Source of the DNA: Halobellus limi
GTDB taxonomy: Archaea > Halobacteriota > Halobacteria > Halobacteriales > Haloferacaceae
Assembly: GCF_004799685.1 (NCBI RefSeq)
Contig: NZ_CP031311.1
Location: 1,116,001 to 1,180,000 of the forward strand
Length of the DNA: 64,000 bases
Reading direction: 5' to 3'
In this document: one piece after another, positions 40,401-49,838 of the stretch
Position numbering within the stretch: the stretch's first letter is position 1
Layout: each line of letters starts with the position of its first letter
Program-made: the position numbers and the translations under genes
Notes under the pieces: model-generated
The model's input: only the letters and a program-made list of their open reading frames with translations
The model's database searches: none
Told to the model about the DNA's origin: nothing

Positions 40401-41258
40401 GTGTCAATCACCGGCGCCACCGCCGGCCAGCCGGTGACGATCGAACCCGGCGTGACCGGCGAGGGCGCGGCGAGTCCGCAGCTCGACGCCGTGAGCGTGG
40501 ACTTCAGCGAGGACGTCGAGAGCACGTCGATGTCCGTCAGCGGCTCTCCCGGTGACACGCCGCCGGTGAACGAGGAGGGCGATCTCGGCTACTTCAACAT
40601 CGAACACGACTTCACCGACGAGCAGGTCGGTGACGTGACGTTCGACTTCACGGTCGAGCGCGACCGCCTCGAGGAACGCGGCGTCGCGCCCGAGGACGTC
40701 GTGCTCTACCGGTACCACGACGGCTCCTGGAACGCGCTGGAGACGTCACAGACCGGCAGCGCCGACGGAGCGGTCCAGTTCGAGGCCGTCTCGCCCGGCC
40801 TCTCCGTGTTCGCGGTGAGCACGGCGCAGGCCCAACAGCCCGCGTTCGAGGTGACTGACGCGACGCTCGGATCGACGGAGATCGGGACGGGTGACTCCGT
40901 CGACGTCACGGCGACCGTCGAGAACACCGGTGACGGGTCCGGCACGTTCACGGCGAACCTCACCGTCGACGGCGAGACCGTCACGCAGGAGTCGGTGACC
41001 GTCGACGCCGGAAGCTCAGAGACGGTGACGTTCACCCGGACGTTCGAGGAGGCCGGCACCTACGACGTCGGCGTCAGCGGCTCGAACGCCGGCACGCTGA
41101 CCGTCTCTGAGGACGCGACTGCGACGACGACCGCGACGGCGACGACGACCGAGGAGGTGTCCGCGCTGGGCGACGTCGACCTCGCCCTGCTCGGACTGCT
41201 CGCGCTGCTCGTCCTGGCCATCGCCGGATTCTTCGTCTACCGGCGCCGCGAGCTGTAA
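28467..41258 (+). CDS. Giant (4263-residue) surface protein of CARDB-like and choice-of-anchor-D-like repeats
   Basis: ATG 28467 starts an export signal (FFAAVFAFLMITSGMTSGVV then AAEE). Order: a fibronectin-III-like domain (about 50-155); a beta-rich region to about 525; CARDB-like units (about 525-2510), the later part in a higher-order repeat of about 275 residues; eleven choice-of-anchor-D/ASPM-SPD2-Hydin-like units of about 105 residues (about 2515-3690), each closing in a variant of 'SGTG' or 'EG'; two PGF-pre-PGF-like domains (about 3690-3850 and 3965-4110) separated by a CARDB unit and a poly-Gly linker; a last CARDB unit; and a Thr-rich stalk with one membrane helix (LALLGLLALLVLAIAGFFVY) and RRREL. 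It is extremely acidic and full of N-x-S/T sequons. It is probably a long adhesive or protective fibre anchored in the membrane. The tail lacks a PGF tripeptide. Confidence 0.88.
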   Translation: MSPLGGNQFFAAVFAFLMITSGMTSGVVAAEEPADGFERIDDSETVQQMGGSNTTLNFSVQTSSASGVETYDATVNGEIDNLTTDSVEVYFEWRPESESEYRRTESQTISDNGTFNETLTFLDPGTTFEYRAVAESENGRGEGDIDTFTTSDVDIATQEFTQAPNTDNIYLFNLFFQGLQVEVDDSEVGMQTDVPEVQLEAGGLSPSVYPNEKGTIPVHNEDETLQFDFEGGDTLQPFSGSQADIVAVKTDSSEGLDTFSQISQLEDFLNDEDSTVEVFETTTIGDGEQITYDLQADGRGSGNYVFLAVNNGSVSVDDTGNVTLDNVRVVGLDFAVVQDGESTVDTSRQDSDYPAPEYRPGENVTVEAEAALSGQGEITQAVILYDENDLGDETVTAVISDLSNVDPNNITVESSISGFEGVRRVEEGSTLMGEDLGERDETGVFTVDDAFRFIGGNIGDRLTDNPDAEVQNASIVAKANTGTETTFEIGTFENFSTGQYSVIHIAENNETGEVYTNKESVTLTEELDPWATVEIDEEDSDLNVVDGEEIVINATVTNIGNGTVNDTADLYFDGNQVVIGGSLGSPEYEQEGINLSAGESQQISLVYDTDEDVGGYFDNVPETVTAEIRTPNGTDSTTVRVGDQGANFSVDIDGGASDDEVTQGDNLTIVSDITNDGDISGTQTIEAEFGGATESTEISVDPGTTETVEFTFENVEVDADTYEVNVSSENDFATTDVTVNPGPNFVVGPLETDDTVTAGEDISVNTTVENTGGAEGTQDVEFLFNGTVVETRSDVTIGSGASQEFNFTVPTSEADAGSRDVTVRTADDTATQSVTILGPPEFQVEIDGDASNDTVVPGGTATIVANVTNFGGQFAEQDITLEHNSDQVKSKSLGLEPGESGSVTFEYQADGATPGEPLTFAVASEDDTADWSVSVVQDATFDVAITEPAEGAEFVAGEDTITVTANVENVGDLSDSQDVRLLVNGSEANSTDVSLNAGGTETVSFDYDPSESDVGELNLTIASADAADVRNITIQSPAAVSYSNFESSADAVTVGDSVTVTADVENTGDIKTTVDATLQVSLEGEEVTTLEDSVPLAGGAEDQLQFEYTFEEPGTYNLTLVDSGLGPLSVEANQEVVDLSIAANTTQPSNGSVVRFTVTNASAEEDPIPNATVTVGEATGTTGADGVTNLTVTGDGETTATATKEGNETIAYNSSSIDLYVLQPSDIVYSDLSVDPFDPETGQAVTITANVTNEDGVEREFNASVYADGQRIDAEESYSGSLNASETRTLTFTTSFDTAGTRTITVGDADLDGEVQTAPSTVVVDRAARQLNITADPREVTEGDSVEFNVTSETDGQPVNASITVAGEQRWTDNESVTIQLNESGDYTAAATKPATPSVDYLNDSVDVRVNAPADIQVIDVSPLRTQLYEGDDLTVEVTVENLGDLQGSEEINFSFQGPEPSQPVELNGSERTTLVFTAEAPNEGDYNVTVEGEEYQTITVDPALATTDLSVAPTVTSGEELVVTATVENRGSTQDTKTVELEIEGENNPVDSQDVVVNGSSSNTTELIWDTTDVAAGDRTVSVDDLEQTVTVERQSVGLQIESNATSTTTTNETVEFLVEDQNDNPVEGATIRVGGQTLITDASGTNTTTFEEAGRYTARASNESTNTTAFERASTSVTIREPANLTVTEAFLPTDEVYAGDDAEVFAAVENDGGVPGTLELNVTNSSDESVTTRNVTLGAGESRTVTLTPQLNATADEETFTVNGVEAGDVTILPQSIVTDVSLNATAVTTEDAVRVDAVVTNRGSTSDDPVTVNFTTGEGETREPNTGEIPDGESVTVSETFTFSEDTTVTVEGPTGEGFTRTVTVAEAVEDLQISANPATVTEGTDLNITVRNESGDLVDATLVIGDETYDVTDGVRNITTPETLDAGDYTVTATKEPEDIGTSYNSSSVDVTVQAPAAIEVTDAYRLTTQAYTGDEVEVEAVVVNDGDRSGEATINLTDDSGEVLDNQTVDLAGNANTTITLNATFNETGSPTLSVGDEVAGEVEIDPQTVVTDYTLTNTSVTVDEQETTINATVRNRGSEIDESFAVNLSVGGQEDVDNATVRNLGSGEEEYVEFNRTFDTVGRTPVTVNEEPETSVLVTEQIVDLSVEVETENPTTDDEVVFNVTDSNDDAIENVTIVARGQVLETGPSGQASANFTSGTVSASVTADGEQISYNPDSVEFTVNRPANVLLLGADVTSEDTVYQGETVDVSVDLLNLGGVAGERNVTLNVSGTTADYSVRSVDPGDSETVTLSAQLNDTGEQTLTATHNGTDADEEATVDVQPAAVVANYTVNQTAISVDDAIRVQANVTNRGEITDSAEVDVSITPAANESYDPVTVDVAPGETNSTNFTFTFADNATRTVSVNDLDPTEISIARNQNELNLTTTTSTVTSGETVEFTVTNEDADGAGVDDATIAIAGQSVSTTGGVAETTVRESGTYTAVVTKTGTEEVVYERDTVEITVTDPLTVPDEAEFGEVGAAPDGGTEETLTVEIANDGGRSVSLGSASVIGGNASQFEVLEAPDSIAAGENGTVTVAYTPTTRGDTSATLRFRADTPRDPVREVNLSGTGVAPGISVDPSSLRFSDTDLGDSPTETVTIENTGNRDLRITTESMGDGFSRSETGTITIDRDTTKTIDVEFDPDEAGEYGSLLSLSSNDPFNGTVEVRASGTGLGGELLLSPSGEYSFGEVTQDSTESASVLIENTGTDTLTVTPVVDDETNGTFTVDSEVDDISLDPGESEFVTVEMTPTDLSPTANLTFDTNNQEVENGTLNLSATTLTPTAEVTTPADDANLTFGDVAVGGSSTNATVIENTDDAALEIETADALSNSDFEFVGSPGTITVQPDETREIPVRLSPTSPGLRTTNLTLTTNDPNNETVNVTLEGQGQATDLTGSPSTVEYETIGEDNVTVETVTLENDGTEELTGLRVTSKSGSGAGQFAVDSSTVPDSLGEGETADVEIAFAPTEDGSHSATVTFEATGDVAGSSQFAVSLSGEATPPDVSVNETDLGFGYVNTAGDEEATETVRITNDGLPGTNLTIEDVSIADDETDAFNVTSPEETEIAGNESAIVAVDFNPDTTGEQTATLEIETNDPDEDTVEVSLTGVGSAPSVSVDPESVQFGQVPTDTTSESRTVEITNDGGETLTIEGVSTTTDQFTVTDGVGDDTTVVPGASRTVSIAAEPTETGEQTADLTISTASVGDTNVRLTSEGIEANLSVTSDLNGTFGDVRTGSSERRTLTVTNDGNATLEIDDATVSDSDAFTVVSGGSTSLERGETETYTVAFGPDAQTEYEGTFELTSNGGPHTVDLNGTGVEGNASLSPSTNDFGDVQIENSSEETFEFANTGDAPLEITSVSVTGDDAGAFEVSGLSTGTVGDGGSETFTVEAAPSVTGSATATLEIQTAESGTTTASLGATGVEQDIELGSGSIEFDRTRLGTTTTTTVTVSNDGNADLSVSDLTVAGADSDQFEVVDPTVTDASSLTIEPGDSREVELEFSPPTDDVEDAQDGIAQTARLIVRSDDPDEGTLEVDLSGTGKTPDLQVSTDALQFGSTSIGDTSTRTLTITNGVNATADVNLRAVAASGGIGNEFTVTDAGADALAPGESTTVTVALTPQVPGPKFGSLNVITTDPRQPGKSVFLSNSETIVTVAYGSVDVSYENVNPGLQPERSFRPYPDADAEVTGTQPFVQTSDDFELRIDGQPDPFGAAVEDDDYGAIRYVSATKSNLSASSLENNTFTFRVSKAALADLDASESDVELLRYDGSSYEPVSGGTTLESEERADYTYEATTDSLSQFAIVVEDPQPNLGVVSGSANLNTTSVTENNPVSVTAEVENTGAADGEADFELTLDGDTVATKTVDVDAGDTTEVTVAFTPSEIGTFPVAFGGEPAGNLEVTEADDEQPPSGGGGGGGQPAAPTQPARVDVTVQDGTAEVSITGATAGQPVTIEPGVTGEGAASPQLDAVSVDFSEDVESTSMSVSGSPGDTPPVNEEGDLGYFNIEHDFTDEQVGDVTFDFTVERDRLEERGVAPEDVVLYRYHDGSWNALETSQTGSADGAVQFEAVSPGLSVFAVSTAQAQQPAFEVTDATLGSTEIGTGDSVDVTATVENTGDGSGTFTANLTVDGETVTQESVTVDAGSSETVTFTRTFEEAGTYDVGVSGSNAGTLTVSEDATATTTATATTTEEVSALGDVDLALLGLLALLVLAIAGFFVYRRREL
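31871..35990 (+). repeat. Higher-order repeat of about 275 codons in the giant gene
   Basis: Unit starts are marked by a strand like VDLSIAANTT or LQISANPATV at about 31871, 32448, 33252, 34085, 34914 and 35740. Each full unit has an N-terminal Ig-like or carboxypeptidase-regulatory-like module ending 'Y-N-S-S-V' or similar, then two CARDB-like modules. The first spacing is shorter (one CARDB missing). Copies are diverged, so the expansion is old. Confidence 0.7.
36010..39540 (+). repeat. Eleven tandem choice-of-anchor-D-like units in the giant gene
   Basis: About 320 bases each. Typical unit: a leader such as ISVDPSSLRFSDTDLGD, then TVTIENTGNRDLRI, then a variant of 'V-x-F-x-P-x-x-x-G' and 'L-x-x-x-S-N-D-P', ending 'V-x-L-S-G-T-G'. 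Units start near 36010, 36330, 36640, 36950, 37275, 37605, 37935, 38250, 38560, 38870 and 39220. Confidence 0.7.
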
Positions 41259-41357
41259 CCCGCGACCGCGGTTTCTCGACGCCGGTTCTCGATTTCGTTC
41301 GTTCGACCCGACCGTCCGACCCACACGTATTTTTAATCCGGGCGGCGAGGTAGGTCC

Positions 41358-42197
41358 GTGAGCGTCCGGCCGGCCTCCATTGCCGACGAGTTCGCCCGGC
41401 GATCAGCCTGGTACGACGTCCTGCTTTTAGCGATCGTTCCAGCCGTCCTCCTCGGAGTGTTCACACTGCCGTACGGCGTCCGCCGGCAGTTCGCACTGCA
41501 GTACTCCGATCCGTCGGTCGTCTCGTTGTACGTCGCGAACTTCACGCATTTTTCACGATCCCATCTGATCAGCAATCTCGTCGGGTACGCGCTGGTCGCG
41601 CCGACGGCGTACCTGCTGTGTACGCTCGCGGAGTACCGCGACACGTTCTGGGGCGTCTTTGCGGTGTTCGTGCTCGTGTTTCCCGTCGTGCTGTCGATGC
41701 TCATCGTCGGTCTCTTCCGCGGGAGGACGGGCGTTGCGATCGGCTTTTCGGGCGTCCTCGCCGCGTTCTTCGGGTTTCTGCCGATCGCGCTGCTGTGGTA
41801 TCTGCGCCGTCGCTTCACTGAGGCACTCGTCCTCCAGCAGGCGCCGCTTCTGTACTTCGTCGGGATCGGGACGATCACGCTGATCGCCGCTCCGCTCAAC
41901 CGGCTGAGTTACCTCGTGTTGGGAATCTCGGCGGTGGGTCTGGCTTTGCTCGGCCGGCAACTGTTCGTCGACCTCTCGCGGCTCACCGTCGCGAACCTCA
42001 AGCGGTCGTTCTTCCCGCCGGGGTACGCCGAACTCGCGAGCGTCGGCATCCTCCTGTTCTTCGCGTTCCCGTTCGCCGCGTTTCCGTCGGTCCGCGTCAC
42101 CGGATCGTCGTTCACCAACCTCTACGTCCACCTCGTCGGGTACTCCCTCGGATACCTCGTTCCGTACGTGACCTTCGCGGTCGTCGCTCGGGAGTGA
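41358..42197 (+). CDS. Rhomboid-family intramembrane serine protease
   Basis: 279 residues with about six to seven membrane helices. GTG 41358 has 'tttttaat' about 24 bases upstream, fitting a leaderless transcript. Rhomboid hallmarks are FTHFSRSHLISNLVGY (residues 62-77, the H-x(4)-H-x(3)-N element), GFSG with Ser131 as nucleophile (AIGFSGVLAAFFGF), and His258 in YVHLVGYSLGYLVPY (H-x-x-G-x-x-x-G helix). Both catalytic residues are therefore visible. Rhomboids cut single-pass membrane proteins near the outer face. It directly follows the giant protein gene, which has a C-terminal membrane helix, and precedes another anchored protein, so one of these may be a substrate. That link is inference. 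Confidence 0.8.
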   Translation: MSVRPASIADEFARRSAWYDVLLLAIVPAVLLGVFTLPYGVRRQFALQYSDPSVVSLYVANFTHFSRSHLISNLVGYALVAPTAYLLCTLAEYRDTFWGVFAVFVLVFPVVLSMLIVGLFRGRTGVAIGFSGVLAAFFGFLPIALLWYLRRRFTEALVLQQAPLLYFVGIGTITLIAAPLNRLSYLVLGISAVGLALLGRQLFVDLSRLTVANLKRSFFPPGYAELASVGILLFFAFPFAAFPSVRVTGSSFTNLYVHLVGYSLGYLVPYVTFAVVARE

Positions 42198-42633
42198 GCG
42201 ACGGTGTCACAGCGGCCACCGAAGCGAGGTGGGCTCCGTTCGTCAATTCGATATCTCCGGGTGGTGTGGACGTGTCGCTGTCGCGGCGACAGACGAGTAT
42301 CGAGGCACCCGTTTGTACCCGCAGTAGCCTGGTCTCTTTCTCAGAAATAAGAGTGAGATACAACTAATATCTGATATGTGTTAGGCGTTCATAGAAGACT
42401 GAATATTCGCTTAGACGTCATTTAGTGTGTGAAATACCATTTTGAATAAATGGTGTATTATTATTTCTAAAAACAGGCGTTTAGATGGCCTCTCCCGGTA
42501 ATTTTTTACATATTCACTAACTGATATAGCAATATGTTCCGTGGTGGGGACTTGACGAGACGGGGTCAGTTGAGTAGTGTCCGGACGACCGACCGGCAGA
42601 ATCAATCGCCGCACATCTAATTTTCGCGATAAA
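42198..42633. other. Intergenic region between rhomboid and PGF-CTERM protein genes
   Basis: 436 bases without a gene. The segment 42350-42510 is A+T-rich ('ggtgtattattatttc'). Promoter elements for the following gene should lie in 42560-42610; 'ttttcgcgataaa' immediately precedes the ATG. No repeat or RNA gene was noticed. Confidence 0.4.
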
Positions 42634-45600
42634 ATGGATACACCAATTTCACGATACGGTCGCGTCGCGTTCGTACTGGTCGTCTGCGTACTGCTCGTCG
42701 TGAGTCCGGTCGCCGGGGTCGCGATGGTACCGGGGATCGACGCCCAGCAGTCGTCCTTGATGGGGAGCGCCAGCGCGGAGAGCTCATCAGGCGGGACTTC
42801 GGCGTCAACGGCACCGACCTGTTCGGAGGTCGGATATGAAGGAGATGGAACCGAATCGAGTCCGTACGAGATCACGAACGTCTCCCAACTGCAGTGTATC
42901 GAGTCACAGGGACTCGGCGCACACTACGTACTCATCTCCGATATCGACGCGTCGAGTACGAGTGAGTGGAATAACGGCGCGGGATTCGATCCGATCGGAG
43001 ACGCTTCTGCTTCGTTCACCGGATCGTTCGACGGGGCCGGACATACGATTTCAGGTCTCACAGTCAACCGTCCGGAGGATCTCGATACGGGGCTGTTTGG
43101 GGCTGTAAATGATGGCGGAACAATCGAGAACGTTCACCTCAGGGAGGCGAACGTCACGGGAGATCTGAGAAGCGCCCTCCTCGTCGGCGGTATTAATTCT
43201 GACGGCCTCGTGCGTTCCTCCACTACAACAGGAAACGTAACTGGTGGTGCCCGCGTCGGTGGGGCTGTTGGGGACGTGAACGGGGGAACGATCCAGAATG
43301 TTTCGGCGACCGCCGACGTTCAGGGCAATGAGTCCGTTGGCGGGCTTGCGGGATCCGTCAGAGGATCTGGTGCCGTCGAGAACTCGGCGGCACAGGGTAC
43401 AGTAAGCGGTGAAAGCTCCGTCGGTGGATTCGTCGGATCGATGTCTCTCAGGGTTGCGACCGTAATTGATTCTTCGACGGAGAGTACGGTTAACGGCACG
43501 GCCGACGTCGGCGGATTCGCCGGACGGATCGAGGCGAGTACGATCGAACGATCGTCGGCATCAGGCAGCGTGACGGCTTCTGATCGCGTCGGCGGCTTCG
43601 TTGGAACCGTCACCACCGGTCCGAACGATAACGAGGGAGAGATACTCAATTCCTACACGACCGCATCCGTCGAAACAGTCGAGGACACCCAAGCGGTCGG
43701 TGGGTTCGCCGGCCTCGTTCAGAACGGTAGTGTTACGACGTCGTATGCGGCCGGATCGATCACCGGGGCGGCAACGCAACCGGGCGGTCTCGTCGGGAAC
43801 GGTACCGATGCGTCGGTGTCGGAGTCCTACTGGGACACTGATGTGACTGGTGTGTCGACCTCCGACGGTGGAACCGGTCTAACCACAGCGGAAATGACCG
43901 GTGAGACCGCCAGCGGGAATATGACTGGGTTCGACTTCGCTGCGATATGGACGACCACGACGTCGTATCCGGAGTTGAGAGAGCAACCCGCGACAGCGAG
44001 CATCGAAGGATCACTCTCTACGGAGAATGGGGTGTCACTTGACGGCGATGTAGTCGGCGCGTTTTACGAATCCGATGAAAGCACTGACGATGGAGGTGCC
44101 GACGATGATGACGGCGGCTCTGATGGTGACGATAACGTCGTCGGAGAAGACACTGAAGTCGCAGCCGACGGGACGTTTGAGATCGACGGCCTTGCGGCCG
44201 ATCAGACGTACAACTTAGTCTACGGCGACGACGATATCGGAGAGGAACGTAACGGCGTCCCGGACCTCTACGCGATCAAAAGAGTCACTCCACCTGCCGA
44301 GGTCGAAGAAACCCTTCCGCAGGCACACAACGTCTCGATTCGGGTCACGGATCAGTTCGGAAATCCGATCGAGGATGCGGACTTGGTGATCCGTCACACC
44401 AACGGTGACGCCGTCGTCGAAGACGGCGTGTACAACGCGACGAACGAAACGGGATACGTCTCGGAGGACGGATCGAGCCAGCTCGAATTCAACGGCAGCC
44501 TCACCGTTCAAGCCGAGTTCAACGGCGTCAACAACTCCACGGACGTGACTGTCGACGACGAGACAGACATCACCGTCGAACTACCCGGTGCCACCGTCAA
44601 CGGCACGATCAATACCACTACGGAGCCGCCGGAGGGTGATACGGTTAGTGTCTTTACCCTGACCGACGACGGGGTCGAGGGTATCGACACGACAGTCGGA
44701 GAGAACGGCCAGTTCGAGATCGGCGGCCTGTCCCCGGATCGAGAGTATATGCTGGCGTTCGGCGACAAGGAGGTCGGTGACGTGACGAACGGCGTGCCGG
44801 ACCTCTATGCGATCCAGCCCGTTTCACCGTCGAGTGCGGATCAGAACATCAGCGTTGGTGAGGTCGATATTCCGGAAGCCTACAACGTCTCCGTGCAGGT
44901 CGTCGACCAGGACGGTGAGCCGATCGAGGGCGCCGACGTCGCGATCGGACATACGAACGGCGATGCTATTATTGAGGACGGCGAGCGCAACGCCACGAAC
45001 GAGAGCGGGTACTTCTTCCGTGAGGGCGATGCTCCCCTCGAACTCGTCGGCAACGTGACCGTCGGAGCGGCGTACCGCGGCGTCAACAACACGACGAACG
45101 TGCCAGATCTGAGTGACGACCGGAAAATCACCGTTCAATTATCGGGTAGCACGGTCACCGGAACTGTTAGAGACGCTGACGACGATGCGGTCCCGAACGC
45201 TACCATCACTTACCTCCCCATTGAAGACGGAGAATTCGACGACGATCGAGAAGTCGAGTTCGACGAGACCGACGATACTGGGTCGTACGAGCTCTCGTTG
45301 ACTCCGGGAGACTACCAGGTTCTCTTCCGGCAGGGAGTAGAAGAGTACCCGATTGACGGCGTGCCTGACGTCTACAGCGCCGATCAAATCTCCGTTAGCG
45401 GACAGACGCAAAACGATATCTCGCTTCCCGAGGGTAACCGCCTCCAGATCCGGCTTGTCAATCAGTCGGGCGATCCGCTCTCAAATGAGACGATCGAAGT
45501 GAACCACCGAAACGAGGAAGGCTTCAACTCCGGCGTAGCACTGGAAACTAACGAAACCGGTTGGGCCTACGTCGGCGGGACGCCCGGCCTGGAAGTCAAC

Positions 45601-48600
45601 GGGACGGTAGATGTCTTACTCGAGTCTGATAGCTATTACGCACAACGAGACCTTGAGGTCACAGAAAACGAGACGGTGATACTCGACGCGAGGGGACTAC
45701 TCAACGTCACCGGAAATCTCACGACTGCCGACGACACCGACGTGACAGAGGGAGAAGTGTTCGCTCAGAGTCCGAAGACGGGCCACTACGCCGATACAGA
45801 ACTCTCCCCAGATGGTGAATTCAGGCTCTCGCTCCTGCGTAATGCGAGCTACGAACTCGGCTTCCGACAAGATGGGATCGACACGCAAACGGACTTCCCG
45901 GAGGATGGAGTTCCGGATGTCCAATCGCTCACACGGGTCGAGACTGGAACGGACGACATCGACCTGGCTACCCAGCAACTCGGCGTCGGGCATCCGTTCG
46001 AGATCACCGTGAAGAACCCGGACGGCTCCAACGCCTCCGGAGTTAACGTCTACGTATCGGACAACAACGTCGGAGAGGAATTCGCTGTCAGCGTCACCGG
46101 CGAAACGAACGAGAACGGCTCGGTCGTGCTCGACGGCGCTGAATCGCCCGGCGTAGAGCTGAACGGTTCGATCGACGTGTACGTGGACGCGCCCGAAGAC
46201 TCGGGCCTCGCGGATACGAATCGACGAAACGTCGTCGTCGACGAGCCGGGAGGCATCACGGTCCAATTCCAACCGGCGGCGTCGGTGAACGGGACGATCC
46301 TCGAATCTGACGGGGAAACGCCCGCAGCCGGTGAAGTGGTACAGGTCAACCCGGTCGGTGACGGTGTCGGCGACACCGTCCCCACCGACGAGAACGGGTT
46401 CTTCGATGCGCGTGTCGCCGCCGACGGTGCCTACCACGTCGGGTTCGTTCAGGGCGACGCGGACAGCGAGTTCACTCCACCCTACCCGCAGGACGGCACC
46501 GTCGACGTCTACGCCATCGCTAACGTGACGAGCGCACAGGAAGCCGAACTCGGAACCGTCACGCTTCCTGAAGCGCACAACCTCACCGTGAACGTCTTCG
46601 ATCCGAGCGGAGACCGCGTCGAGGACGCGACGATCGAGATCTGGAGCACGGCGAACGACGCCTACCAGTGGGGCGGCGACACCACCGTCTCCGACGGCAC
46701 GCTCACCGTGGAGGCCAACGGATCGCTCGACATCCGGGCGTCAGCCCCCGAAGGGACGGAGCTACGAACCGAGTACGAACGGGTCAACGTGACAGAAGAG
46801 GACACCGTCAACGTCACGCTCGATCGCAACGTGACCGTCTCCGGCAGTGTCGAGTACTGGAACGGTGACGGGGTCTCCGGATACCGGATGGAACTGTTCA
46901 GCAGCGGCGACGGCGGCGACTACCGTCCGACCAACGACAGCGGCTACTTCGAGCTGTACCCCGAGCCGAACCAGTTCTACGCGCTCGGATTCAAACAGAT
47001 CGATGTGGAGGGCGACCGACCGAACTTCCCGAAGGACGGCCGCCCCGACCTCCACACATTCAGTGCAATCGAGCTTGAGAACGAGGACCGTGATGTGGGT
47101 GATCTGACGCTGCCGCCGGCACACCTCGTGAACGTCACGGTTGAGTACACGAACGGCGAACCGGTCTCGGGAGCGACGGTGGATCTCCAGCAGTTCGAGG
47201 GAGCCGCCTCCTCGCACCACCCGGGAACGACGAACGCGACCGGCGAGGTCGTCCTCGACGGGGCGAGTTCGCCCGGCATCGAGGTGAACGGGACGCTCCG
47301 CGTTGGCGTCAGAGGGACTGACGACTACGCGTGGAACACGACGGAGTTCGAGATCGACAGTGAGCGTAACGTCACGGTCGTCGTCAGAGAGCGTGTCAAC
47401 GTGACCGGCCAACTGGAGAACGAATCGGGCGATTCCCTGACTGACTTCGACGTCCTGGTCGGACAGAGCGCGCGCTCCTTCGTCTCCGAAGAGGTGAACG
47501 ACACCGGTCAGTTCGCTGTCCCGGTCGGCGCGAACCAGACTTACAGCGTCGCGGTCGGACAACGCGACGCGGAGACTGATACGCTCGCGCCGCGCGACGG
47601 CGTGACGGACTTATACGAGCTTACAACCGTCAAGGTCGGTGCCGGCGATTACGACCTCGCCGAGCAGACTGTCCCGGACGCTCACGGCGTGCTCAACGTC
47701 AGCGTCGAGAACGAGTCCGGCGTACCGGTCGAGAATGCGCTGGTGACCATCGTTCCCAACCAGTCCGGAACGCCCGAGCCGACAAGCGCCCGACTCGGAA
47801 GCCTGACCGACGAACGGGGCTACCTCGTCGTCGGCGACAAGCCGGGAATCGAGGCCGCGGGGAACTACACGGTCCGCGTCGAACGACCACCGAACGCCGA
47901 GCAGTTCGTCGACGAGACCTATGTCCGGGAAGTGAACGTCACCGAAGCGGGTGGCGACGAAAACGTCACCGTGACGCTGAACGAGGTCGATACGACCGAG
48001 CCTGAATCCGACATCAGCATCCAGAGCGCTTCGGCCGTGGACGATAACATCACGGTCGGTGACCAGGTGATTGTTGACGTCACACTCGAAAATCAGGGTG
48101 ACGCGGAAGGGGAGACAACGGTCGAACTGACCTCCGCAGATGGATCGATTTCGGCTTCTGAGACCACCTCGGTCCCCGCGGACGGTACTGCCAGCGTCGA
48201 TCTCCAAACGACAATCGACTCAGCCGACACGTACGATTTGACTGTCACCGCAGCCGGTGACAGCGTCGACGTGGGATCCGTGACCGTCGAAGAACCGACA
48301 GAGCCGGCGAACGTCACCATCGCCGACGCCGGACTCTCACGGACCGATATCACCGCGGACGAGACCGTCCTCGTCAACGTGACGCTGCAGAACACTGGAG
48401 ATGAAGAGGGCGAAATCAACCTCTCCCTGTATCGCGGCGAGGGCATTATGGTGACGTCGTCGTACAACGTCTCAGCAGGCGACACGAGGACTGTCACTTA
48501 TGAGATGCCGTTCCCGGAGGCCGGCACCTACGACGTCAGCGCTCAGGTCGACACTGGCGACCAAGTTGAGGCTGGGACCGTGAACGTCGAGGAAGAGAGT

Positions 48601-48684
48601 TCCACCGAAACGCCCGGATTCGGCATTGTCCCCGCGGTCGTCGCACTGCTCGGAGCCGCGATGGTTCTGCGGCGACGCCGCTGA
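42634..48684 (+). CDS. PGF-CTERM surface protein with GLUG and carboxypeptidase-regulatory-like repeats
   Basis: 2016 residues from ATG 42634 (MDTPISRYGRVAFVLVVCVL), a clear signal peptide; the earlier GTG adds 19 non-signal residues. Residues 65-130 form a Cys-containing start typical of GLUG proteins (CSEVGYEGDGTESSPYEITN). Residues 150-440 hold GLUG-type repeats (units like VGGFVG with IENS or VENS), predicted to form a beta solenoid. Residues 460-1790 are seven carboxypeptidase-regulatory-like units, each with a 'DGVPDLYAI'-type motif. Two CARDB-like domains follow (about 1790-1985). The end TPGFGIVPAVVALLGAAMVL then RRRR is a PGF-CTERM signal, cut and lipid-anchored by archaeosortase A. 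Acidic and sequon-rich. Likely a glycosylated surface adhesin or scaffold. Confidence 0.9.
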   Translation: MDTPISRYGRVAFVLVVCVLLVVSPVAGVAMVPGIDAQQSSLMGSASAESSSGGTSASTAPTCSEVGYEGDGTESSPYEITNVSQLQCIESQGLGAHYVLISDIDASSTSEWNNGAGFDPIGDASASFTGSFDGAGHTISGLTVNRPEDLDTGLFGAVNDGGTIENVHLREANVTGDLRSALLVGGINSDGLVRSSTTTGNVTGGARVGGAVGDVNGGTIQNVSATADVQGNESVGGLAGSVRGSGAVENSAAQGTVSGESSVGGFVGSMSLRVATVIDSSTESTVNGTADVGGFAGRIEASTIERSSASGSVTASDRVGGFVGTVTTGPNDNEGEILNSYTTASVETVEDTQAVGGFAGLVQNGSVTTSYAAGSITGAATQPGGLVGNGTDASVSESYWDTDVTGVSTSDGGTGLTTAEMTGETASGNMTGFDFAAIWTTTTSYPELREQPATASIEGSLSTENGVSLDGDVVGAFYESDESTDDGGADDDDGGSDGDDNVVGEDTEVAADGTFEIDGLAADQTYNLVYGDDDIGEERNGVPDLYAIKRVTPPAEVEETLPQAHNVSIRVTDQFGNPIEDADLVIRHTNGDAVVEDGVYNATNETGYVSEDGSSQLEFNGSLTVQAEFNGVNNSTDVTVDDETDITVELPGATVNGTINTTTEPPEGDTVSVFTLTDDGVEGIDTTVGENGQFEIGGLSPDREYMLAFGDKEVGDVTNGVPDLYAIQPVSPSSADQNISVGEVDIPEAYNVSVQVVDQDGEPIEGADVAIGHTNGDAIIEDGERNATNESGYFFREGDAPLELVGNVTVGAAYRGVNNTTNVPDLSDDRKITVQLSGSTVTGTVRDADDDAVPNATITYLPIEDGEFDDDREVEFDETDDTGSYELSLTPGDYQVLFRQGVEEYPIDGVPDVYSADQISVSGQTQNDISLPEGNRLQIRLVNQSGDPLSNETIEVNHRNEEGFNSGVALETNETGWAYVGGTPGLEVNGTVDVLLESDSYYAQRDLEVTENETVILDARGLLNVTGNLTTADDTDVTEGEVFAQSPKTGHYADTELSPDGEFRLSLLRNASYELGFRQDGIDTQTDFPEDGVPDVQSLTRVETGTDDIDLATQQLGVGHPFEITVKNPDGSNASGVNVYVSDNNVGEEFAVSVTGETNENGSVVLDGAESPGVELNGSIDVYVDAPEDSGLADTNRRNVVVDEPGGITVQFQPAASVNGTILESDGETPAAGEVVQVNPVGDGVGDTVPTDENGFFDARVAADGAYHVGFVQGDADSEFTPPYPQDGTVDVYAIANVTSAQEAELGTVTLPEAHNLTVNVFDPSGDRVEDATIEIWSTANDAYQWGGDTTVSDGTLTVEANGSLDIRASAPEGTELRTEYERVNVTEEDTVNVTLDRNVTVSGSVEYWNGDGVSGYRMELFSSGDGGDYRPTNDSGYFELYPEPNQFYALGFKQIDVEGDRPNFPKDGRPDLHTFSAIELENEDRDVGDLTLPPAHLVNVTVEYTNGEPVSGATVDLQQFEGAASSHHPGTTNATGEVVLDGASSPGIEVNGTLRVGVRGTDDYAWNTTEFEIDSERNVTVVVRERVNVTGQLENESGDSLTDFDVLVGQSARSFVSEEVNDTGQFAVPVGANQTYSVAVGQRDAETDTLAPRDGVTDLYELTTVKVGAGDYDLAEQTVPDAHGVLNVSVENESGVPVENALVTIVPNQSGTPEPTSARLGSLTDERGYLVVGDKPGIEAAGNYTVRVERPPNAEQFVDETYVREVNVTEAGGDENVTVTLNEVDTTEPESDISIQSASAVDDNITVGDQVIVDVTLENQGDAEGETTVELTSADGSISASETTSVPADGTASVDLQTTIDSADTYDLTVTAAGDSVDVGSVTVEEPTEPANVTIADAGLSRTDITADETVLVNVTLQNTGDEEGEINLSLYRGEGIMVTSSYNVSAGDTRTVTYEMPFPEAGTYDVSAQVDTGDQVEAGTVNVEEESSTETPGFGIVPAVVALLGAAMVLRRRR
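44245..47615 (+). repeat. Seven carboxypeptidase-regulatory-like units
   Basis: Motif positions: NGVPDLYAI about 44250 and 44790, DGVPDVYSA about 45355, DGVPDVQSL about 45905, DGTVDVYAI about 46495, DGRPDLHTF about 47035, DGVTDLYEL about 47595. The spacing of 540-590 bases gives units of 180-197 residues. The D-G-x-x-D-[LV] core looks like a possible calcium loop (D-x-D/N-G-like), which is inference. Confidence 0.7.
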
Positions 48685-48722: not shown

Positions 48723-49838
48723 TCAGTACCGCCGTCGGACCAACAGCATTAGCGCGAGGAACGCGCCGACGACGTTGAGCGGGAACATCGGGGTCGACGT
48801 CCCGGTTCCCTGTGCCTGTGAGTCCGAGTCAGTCGGCGTCGACGGTTCGATGACGTCCGAGTCAGTCGCCGTCGACCCGCCGGACTCCCCCGCCGACGAG
48901 TCCGTGCTCGTGTCGACATCGGTACCCGGCGACGCCGGCGTCGACACGTCCGTCACGGTCGCGTTCGTCGGTGTGGCGGTCACGTTCTCGGGCGTCGCCG
49001 TCGTGTTCGTCGGTGTCTCCGTCGCGGGCGTCGACGTGGCGGTTCCCGCCGAACCGCCGGGTTGCGCGCCCCCGCCGCCGGAGGACTCCGTCGTCGTACT
49101 GGTGCTCGGCGCCTCGGTTGTGGTCTGCTCTTCCTCCTCGGCCGTGATGTTGAGCCGCTGGACGGCGCTGACGCCGGTCGCTTCGTCACGACCGTTGATT
49201 TCTTCCTCTCCGCGAGCGGCCGCGTAGAACCGGTACTCGTCCGGGTCCAGGTCCTCGATGACCACGTTGTACGTCCGGTCGTCGACGCGAACCGCGTCGT
49301 ATCGGTGCGTCGAATCGTTCATCACCACGACGTCGACGTAGTTCGGCCGCTCCGTGTCGTCAGTCAGTTCGACCGTGATCGAGACGCGCTCGTCCTCCGG
49401 AACCTCCTCGGGAGCGTCGACTGCGAAGTCGTAGCCGGACATCACGATCGGCTGGATCGCCTCTCTATCGTCCCCGACTTCGAGCGAGAGCACGTACGTG
49501 CCCCGTTCCAGCGAGGTGGTCTGATCGAGCGTGTAGGTTCCGTTCTCCGATCCCTCCACGGAATCCATCGTCAGTCCGTCACCGTTGTACATACTGACGG
49601 TGAAACCCTCGTCTCCCGGCCGCGTCACCTCCACCGGGACCGTCTCGCCGACGTCTCTGTAACCGAGCGACGAGACGGTGTAGTCCTCTCCGAGGACCGT
49701 GACCGTTCTGGAGGGCGTGTCGATGCTCGACGTCGATTCGACGGTATACTCCGAAGAAGCCAGCGCCGACCCGGCGGCCAGGAGCAGCGCGGCGACGAGG
49801 GCGAGGAGGACGACGGTGCGAAGGCGGGGCCGCTTCAT
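48723..49838 (-). CDS. Anchored surface protein with Ser/Thr-rich stalk
   Basis: 371 residues: signal peptide (TVVLLALVAALLLAAGSALA), two beta-rich domains to about residue 240, then a stalk of about 100 residues rich in Thr, Ser, Pro and Gly with many N-A/T-T sequons (for example TATPENVTATPTNATV), and a C-terminal helix VVGAFLALMLLVRRRY preceded by TSTPMFPLN. The architecture is that of PGF-CTERM proteins, but the PGF tripeptide is replaced by 'PMF'. It may be a variant sorting signal or a plain anchor. Convergent with the 42634 gene and co-directional with the DUF1616 and DUF4129-like genes. Confidence 0.75.
   Translation of the reverse strand: MKRPRLRTVVLLALVAALLLAAGSALASSEYTVESTSSIDTPSRTVTVLGEDYTVSSLGYRDVGETVPVEVTRPGDEGFTVSMYNGDGLTMDSVEGSENGTYTLDQTTSLERGTYVLSLEVGDDREAIQPIVMSGYDFAVDAPEEVPEDERVSITVELTDDTERPNYVDVVVMNDSTHRYDAVRVDDRTYNVVIEDLDPDEYRFYAAARGEEEINGRDEATGVSAVQRLNITAEEEEQTTTEAPSTSTTTESSGGGGAQPGGSAGTATSTPATETPTNTTATPENVTATPTNATVTDVSTPASPGTDVDTSTDSSAGESGGSTATDSDVIEPSTPTDSDSQAQGTGTSTPMFPLNVVGAFLALMLLVRRRY

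Follow-up and report, generated by a model that had tools for sequence, protein, structure and literature searches.

The window locus encodes a giant secreted protein and a rhomboid protease

The window analyzed here, a stretch of 64,000 nucleotides from the haloarchaeon Halobellus limi (contig NZ_CP031311.1, positions 1,116,001 to 1,180,000), contains on its forward strand the structural gene for a secreted giant protein of 4265 amino acids (P0002; 28461–41258 of the window, to which all coordinates without a contig refer), identified by direct reading and family scans. The gene for a rhomboid intramembrane protease of 279 amino acids (P0001; 41358–42197, forward strand) begins with the start codon GTG 99 bases past the P0002 stop codon. 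P0001 belongs to a rhomboid clade associated with a distinct type of C-terminal tail and is proposed as the processing enzyme, with P0002 as its proposed substrate. In the original prediction, made from the sequence of this DNA, it had been claimed that the giant ends in a single membrane helix behind a Thr-rich stalk and that an intact rhomboid gene follows after 99 bases, and both claims were borne out.

P0002 consists, in order, of CARDB repeats and choice-of-anchor D/ASH repeats, a PGF-pre-PGF domain, a last CARDB domain, a stalk and a C-terminal helix. The best-scoring PGF-pre-PGF domain lies at residues 4044–4120 (40590–40820, forward strand; TIGR04213, 89.5 bits on the whole protein with a cut-off of 28). 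The tail of P0002 is not a PGF-CTERM tail; the PGF-CTERM model TIGR04126 gave no match to P0002 and matched the next protein, P0003. Direct reading of the C-terminus, all on the forward strand, reveals the Thr-rich stalk EDATATTTATATTT (residues 4217–4230; 41109–41150), the segment EEVSALGDVD (41151–41180), which may serve as a recognition region ahead of the helix, the transmembrane helix LALLGLLALLVLAIAGFFV (41181–41237; hydropathy 2.9) and a basic C-terminal end, YRRREL (41238–41255). Because of this basic end and a signal-peptide-like start, the tail is predicted to form an anchor with an N-out, C-in topology.

In P0001 the rhomboid motifs HxxxN, GxSG and HxxG are intact, as H69-x3-N73 (41562–41576, forward strand; oxyanion region), G129-x-S131-G132 and H258-x2-G261, and by motif the catalytic residues would be Ser131 of GFSG (41748–41750, forward strand) and His258 of HLVG (42129–42131, forward strand). 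The Pfam model Rhomboid (PF01694) scored 15.5 bits on P0001, under its cut-off of 22.6, and matched 11 of 15 relatives at E ≤ 0.1 (best 1e-4); this model is also reported to overlook true rhombosortase members (PMC3237569). With the NCBIfam rhombosortase model TIGR03902, P0001 reached 18.9 bits, under the equivalog cut-off of 84, and all 15 relatives were matched (best E 3.3e-6). Control-clade rhomboids were matched as well, though less strongly (E < 0.01 for 4 of 10), so that the match is not specific and the model was dropped as a discriminator of the clade. The AlphaFold model of P0001 (pLDDT 85) has a rhomboid fold with six or more membrane helices, and when it was used in a Foldseek search, nearly all best matches were GlpG structures, mostly with probabilities of 0.72–0.99, with weak E-values (0.09 and up) and modest TM-scores. 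A phmmer search of P0001 against solved structures gave no match. From its motifs and predicted structure, P0001 is taken as a divergent rhomboid of the active type.

A promoter-like element, TATTTTTAAT, is located at 41329–41338, about 20–30 bases ahead of the P0001 start codon; nearer to that codon is a GAGGT. Because of this element and the 99-base gap, it is possible that P0001 is transcribed separately from P0002.

Rhomboids of the P0001 clade mostly lie next to tail-bearing secreted proteins

About 110 loci reached at least 200 bits when a profile (A1) of the 15 relatives was run over 392 genomes of the order; a small group scored in between, near 160 bits, and the remaining haloarchaeal rhomboids did not exceed 115 bits. 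Clade rhomboids are carried by 100 of the 392 genomes; the window's genome shares its genus with G005, G007 and G011. In a tree, the clade is set apart from nearly all other rhomboids with 97% support; the exception is L191, a long-branched control placed on the clade side yet outside a core supported at 99%. Across the clade members, Ser131 (110/110), His258 (109/109 readable) and N73 (107/110) are conserved, and the serine region mostly reads GFSG[VILM]NMA, where P0001 has GFSGVLAA. Rhomboids outside the clade are widespread in haloarchaea, and the window's genome contains a second, distant rhomboid of the control type, which has no tail neighbor (L028, G000:C1:1677626–1678327).

Neighborhoods of 14–18 kb around clade and control loci were analyzed with genes called by a simple custom scorer and subsequently checked for a C-terminal helix; both the gene caller and the hydropathy rule are crude. 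Partners missed by the caller were checked by hand, and L038, L101, L126 and L130 turned out to be over-extended rhomboid reading frames overlapping a real tail protein. The adjacent gene encodes a tail-bearing secreted protein and points its 3' end at the rhomboid gene at 84 of 110 clade loci versus none of 32 control-clade loci (Fisher p 2e-16, hand-counted). A C-terminal helix is encoded by 79 of 127 genes at the adjacent 3'-facing position, whereas only 4 of 362 genes at positions 2–5 encode one. The adjacency is thus far above chance. Partners are located upstream on the same strand or, at about 10 loci, convergently on the other strand; the convergent partners cannot form an operon with the rhomboid gene, and therefore the pairing does not reflect operon membership only.

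At five loci (L132, L134, L136, L137, L138) the clade rhomboid lies in a like setting 3' of a protein of about 500 amino acids that is without any helix, and possibly the tail was lost there and the protease retained. No adjacent partner is present at L040, L041 and L043, which are found in conserved housekeeping surroundings with NikR-like and sugar-kinase-like genes; an EPGGF giant is encoded elsewhere in two of the genomes concerned, and several dispersed tails are found in the third (G004).

The partner proteins share the tail motif E-x-[GAS]-G-[FIL]

In the tails of the partner proteins, the motif E-x-[GAS]-G-[FIL] precedes a single helix, after which Arg usually follows. Directly ahead of the helix, 65 of 80 partners have the motif; among other proteins that end in a helix the count is 2 of 99, and among random 23-mers the frequency is 0.3%. 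Two residues, Glu and the second Gly, do not vary in an alignment (A4) of 28 tails, the rows of which were picked for the E, and the same two are among the few invariant columns of a partner family (A2; 29–54% identity to the reference) that was not selected by motif. When curated NCBIfam tail models were compared with the 28 tails, none recurred across most of them (GVDTG-CTERM 6/28, GPS-CTERM 2/28; best E 3.7e-5). The original prediction had stressed the non-PGF nature of the membrane tail, and TIGR04126 indeed does not match P0002, but this property is not distinguishing: "any non-PGF helical tail" was rejected as the signal since several such proteins have no adjoining rhomboid, and it is E-x-[GAS]-G-[FIL] that distinguishes. 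A separate variant, V[SG]xxG[DG] (P0002, L031, L133), was also considered and was rejected because the tree groups the corresponding rhomboids too poorly.

Most partners have sizes of 260–560 amino acids, many of them sharing an operon with signal peptidase I-like and DUF5305 genes, and giants (846–4265 amino acids) are only one kind of partner. One family of 480–560 amino acids is DUF1102-like, contains PGF-pre-PGF and CARDB domains, is weakly TafF-like and is encoded in an operon with signal peptidase I-like and DUF5305 genes; a further family has about 300 amino acids. One homologous family in one conserved operon accounts for 43 of 85 partners. Clustering at strict linkage gives 31 clusters, and loose clustering (E 1e-4) fuses nearly all partners via shared CARDB, PGF-pre-PGF and DUF1102 domains. 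Homologous stalk domains bear either a tail of the E-x-G-G-F type or a PGF tail. We hold with considerable confidence that the clade serves E-x-[GAS]-G-[FIL] tails.

Tail and clade rhomboid co-occur across genomes

A tail profile built from the 28 tails of rhomboid-adjacent genes was run over whole genomes with a threshold of E ≤ 1e-4. Among 60 relatives, 12 genomes were matched, all of them among the 14 with a clade rhomboid, and among the 392 genomes 68 were matched, 66 of which are among the 100 with a clade rhomboid. As the profile derives from rhomboid-adjacent tails, this genome-level test is partly circular, which counts against relying on it. The full-length A2 family was detected in 9 of the 60 genomes, every one of them with a clade rhomboid. 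Co-occurrence of the clade with tail-bearing giants had been proposed as a check, and it holds for the tails (66/68 genomes), but giants are not the typical partner, most partners being of 260–560 amino acids. A less circular test is provided by a hand-made list of 12 genomes in which a full-motif tail lies far from any clade rhomboid: the rhomboid is present in 11 of them (hypergeometric p about 2e-6, before correction for phylogeny). Genome G004 has about six dispersed tails, including tails on proteins of 373, 922 and 2406 amino acids, none of them beside its one intact rhomboid; on different proteins they read AEPGGFDL, TEPGGFDP, SELGGFDS, EERAGFNP and LEPGGVGI. Similarly, the rhomboids of G007 and G013 have no adjacent partner, and both genomes encode EPGGF giants far away from them. 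At L405 (G004:C3:347581–348425) and at G254:C17:34476–35417, rhomboid genes are found in two pieces beside intact tail proteins and are apparently broken.

Several findings weigh against a dedicated role of the clade for these tails. There is no tail neighbor at 25 of the 110 clade loci (one more lies at a contig edge), and 34 of the 100 clade genomes show no tail match at E ≤ 1e-4; such loci and genomes imply either drift of the tails or a different function for part of the clade. Among the 392 genomes the one clear exception is G222, which has no clade rhomboid but encodes a near-full-motif tail (G222:C21:192713–192814) within a frame of 637 amino acids, and in G063, which also lacks a clade rhomboid, the tail profile matches a helix only. 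Furthermore, the samples are weighted to one genus (g13) and the p-values are uncorrected for phylogeny.

The tail might also be a mere stop-transfer anchor and the rhomboid a protease for housekeeping or quality control whose gene is carried along in a cluster of surface-protein genes. This would agree with about half of the partners (43/85) being one family in one conserved operon, with the wide distribution of other-clade rhomboids in haloarchaea and with a sister genome, G003, in which the same giant keeps a helical tail although the rhomboid is absent. It is difficult to reconcile with convergent, unlinked partners, with the existence of some 30 partner clusters at strict linkage, with a fixed E-x-x-G motif, with the complete absence of pairing in control clades and with the confinement of distant tails, bar one, to clade-bearing genomes, and we consider it quite unlikely.

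The window locus compared with its closest relatives

By tree, the rhomboid nearest to P0001 is L115 (45% identity), whose gene lies 51 bases 3' of that for a 560-amino-acid protein with C-terminal domains 48% identical to P0002 over 175 amino acids and with the tail EQSGFDL. In P0002 itself, EVSAL is a loose fit only, to E-x-[GASF]-[GA]-[FIL], the strict form being E-x-[GAS]-G-[FIL]. The tail profile aligns to the helix part of P0002 only (profile positions 16–38 of 39, E 5e-4) and, as judged from its sequence, the tail of P0002 is off-pattern for the tail family of its clade, both of which speak against P0002 as the substrate of P0001. So does G003, in which orthologs of P0002 (78% identity, C-terminal part) and P0003 are syntenic: the giant and its helical tail are kept there while the rhomboid gene is absent, between the giants as well as genome-wide, so that the giant does not strictly depend on the rhomboid. 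No remnant of a rhomboid gene was found in the G003 intergenic region. Identity between P0002 and its G003 ortholog drops from about 80% to about 40% over the last 50 residues, the helix being kept, the EVSAL segment lost and the pre-helix region reading DEPEQDGINF. This single comparison can be read in two ways, namely that the motif decays once the protease is gone or that the giant needs no protease.

If the adjacency in the window were accidental or decayed, P0001 would serve another protein and P0002 would be anchored by its own helix. The loose motif and weak profile match of P0002 are what would then be expected, as is a G003 ortholog without a rhomboid, and the promoter-like element together with the 99-base gap would permit separate transcription. 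The sister rhomboid L115, however, pairs with a homolog of the P0002 C-terminus, no better tail was found in the window's genome, and the motif region is the very part that differs in the rhomboid-less G003 ortholog; overall, an accidental adjacency appears unlikely and P0002 in particular is a reasonably likely substrate of P0001. Besides P0002, the tail profile gave only one match at E ≤ 0.01 in the window's genome, mainly to the helix. This protein of 395 amino acids (L408, G000:C1:1429995), encoded beside an ABC-transporter-like ATPase and ending in the tail DSGGLQLTVIGG...YLWRR, may represent a second substrate or have matched by chance.

Outside the rhomboid pair, the neighboring gene on the forward strand (42577–48684) encodes P0003, a second giant of 2035 amino acids with GLUG, carboxypeptidase-regulatory and CARDB repeats and an orthodox PGF-CTERM tail (TIGR04126, 35.2 bits with a cut-off of 24.5). 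A 371-amino-acid protein encoded at 48723–49838 ends in STPMFPLNVVGAFLALMLLVRRRY, with a C-terminal helix and a PGF-like motif in which M replaces G. As ArtA is also encoded in the window's genome, the archaeosortase route and the rhomboid route coexist there. The rhomboid-based route beside archaeosortase that had been predicted for haloarchaea thus has strong support for the clade as a whole (84/110 versus 0/32 loci; ArtA present), but the window is a less clear case, with an off-pattern tail and a G003 ortholog without rhomboid.

A proposed processing route and its relation to known systems

Gene pairing, tail motif, catalytic residues and genome-wide co-occurrence are observed, and the best overall explanation is probably that rhomboids of the P0001 clade are specialized for the processing of secreted proteins whose tails carry E-x-[GAS]-G-[FIL], P0002 included; from these observations we infer catalysis, the position of the cut, the membrane topology and what becomes of the cleaved protein. 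P0002 would be exported via its signal peptide and tethered by its C-terminal helix, and P0001 would cut at the outer end of this helix. Cleavage of VesB leaves the second motif Gly exposed, and a moiety containing glycerophosphoethanolamine is then attached to this residue (Gadwal et al., 2018; PMC6219818). By analogy, the cut would be expected past the second small residue of the motif, between G and F of E-x-G-G-F and, in P0002, probably between EEVSA and L; such a position would fit because the near-invariant Gly precedes a large hydrophobic residue. The cut would either free the giant or allow re-anchoring of the new C-terminus.

The rhombosortase/GlyGly-CTERM system was described by Haft and Varghese (2011; PMC3237569), who found adjacent pairs in 16 of 21 single-target genomes. 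As in that system, a rhomboid-family protease is combined with a tail in which two small motif residues are followed by a helix and a basic end, pairs are adjacent when single and dispersed one-to-many sets occur, the phylogenetic profile of the clade matches that of the tail, and the second Gly, the one exposed in VesB, is near-invariant. In contrast to it, the host is an archaeon without type II secretion or outer membrane, the partners are giant and fimbrial-type proteins, the haloarchaeal motif includes a conserved Glu, with a large hydrophobic residue past the Gly, and P0001 scores far under the TIGR03902 cut-off. The rhombosortase serine region GLSGMLHGL, with its SGMLH motif and His in TM4 (PMC3237569), is replaced by GFSGxNMA in the clade and GFSGVLAA in P0001. 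Because of this TIGR03902 score and the absence of SGMLH from P0001, the haloarchaeal pair is called an analog of rhombosortase/GlyGly-CTERM.

With ArtA/PGF-CTERM (TIGR04125, TIGR04126) the pair shares a haloarchaeal tripartite C-terminal signal and common PGF-pre-PGF and CARDB stalk domains, whereas the enzyme is unrelated, the motif is another one and the partner carries another tail. The Haloferax volcanii rhomboids Rho1 (HVO_1474) and Rho2 (HVO_0727) are tied to cell-surface traits, with substrates unknown (PMC11985538); passages of that paper make no mention of sorting tails or substrate pairing, and these rhomboids are set beside the clade by description only. Taf fimbriae (NCBIfam NF052520–NF052523) and TasA/SipW-like operons are also similar, in that the commonest partner is weakly TafF-like, neighbors are weakly TafE-, TafC- or TafA-like and signal peptidase I-like and DUF5305 genes follow, but none of the Taf matches comes near its curated cut-off, and an operon of this kind is missing from the window locus. 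In the open literature, to which the search was confined, no earlier description was found in searches for an archaeal rhombosortase or for the Taf fimbriae.

The clade rhomboid could be a simple sheddase: it would cut the helix just to set the surface protein free in the medium, and no re-anchoring would follow. Canonical rhomboids release ectodomains, the motif places small, helix-breaking residues at the outer helix end, and no lipid-transfer partner turned up beside the pairs, although no specific search for one was made. On the other hand, a tripartite tail with a fixed motif looks more like a sorting system, in which a cut is followed by attachment, and the dispersed many-to-one tails of G004 and the homologous stalk domains with either the new tail or a PGF tail are likewise more sorting-like, so that mere shedding seems rather unlikely. 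A full second sorting system apart from archaeosortase, in which the rhomboid would cut E-x-G-G-F ahead of the F, the new C-terminal Gly would be covalently joined to a membrane lipid, as in VesB, and surface proteins would have switched systems by tail exchange alone, is put forward tentatively, by analogy, as a serious possibility short of an expectation.

As far as sequences allow one to judge, this looks like a previously undescribed archaeal way to cut and sort surface proteins. The commonest partners point to a function in the assembly of surface fibers. The substrates of haloarchaeal rhomboids are described as an open question in the 2025 Haloferax paper (PMC11985538), and the clade, its tail motif and the list of candidate substrates make this question directly testable. 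If cleavage proves to be followed by anchoring, the use of rhomboids as sorting enzymes would have arisen independently in archaea and in bacteria.

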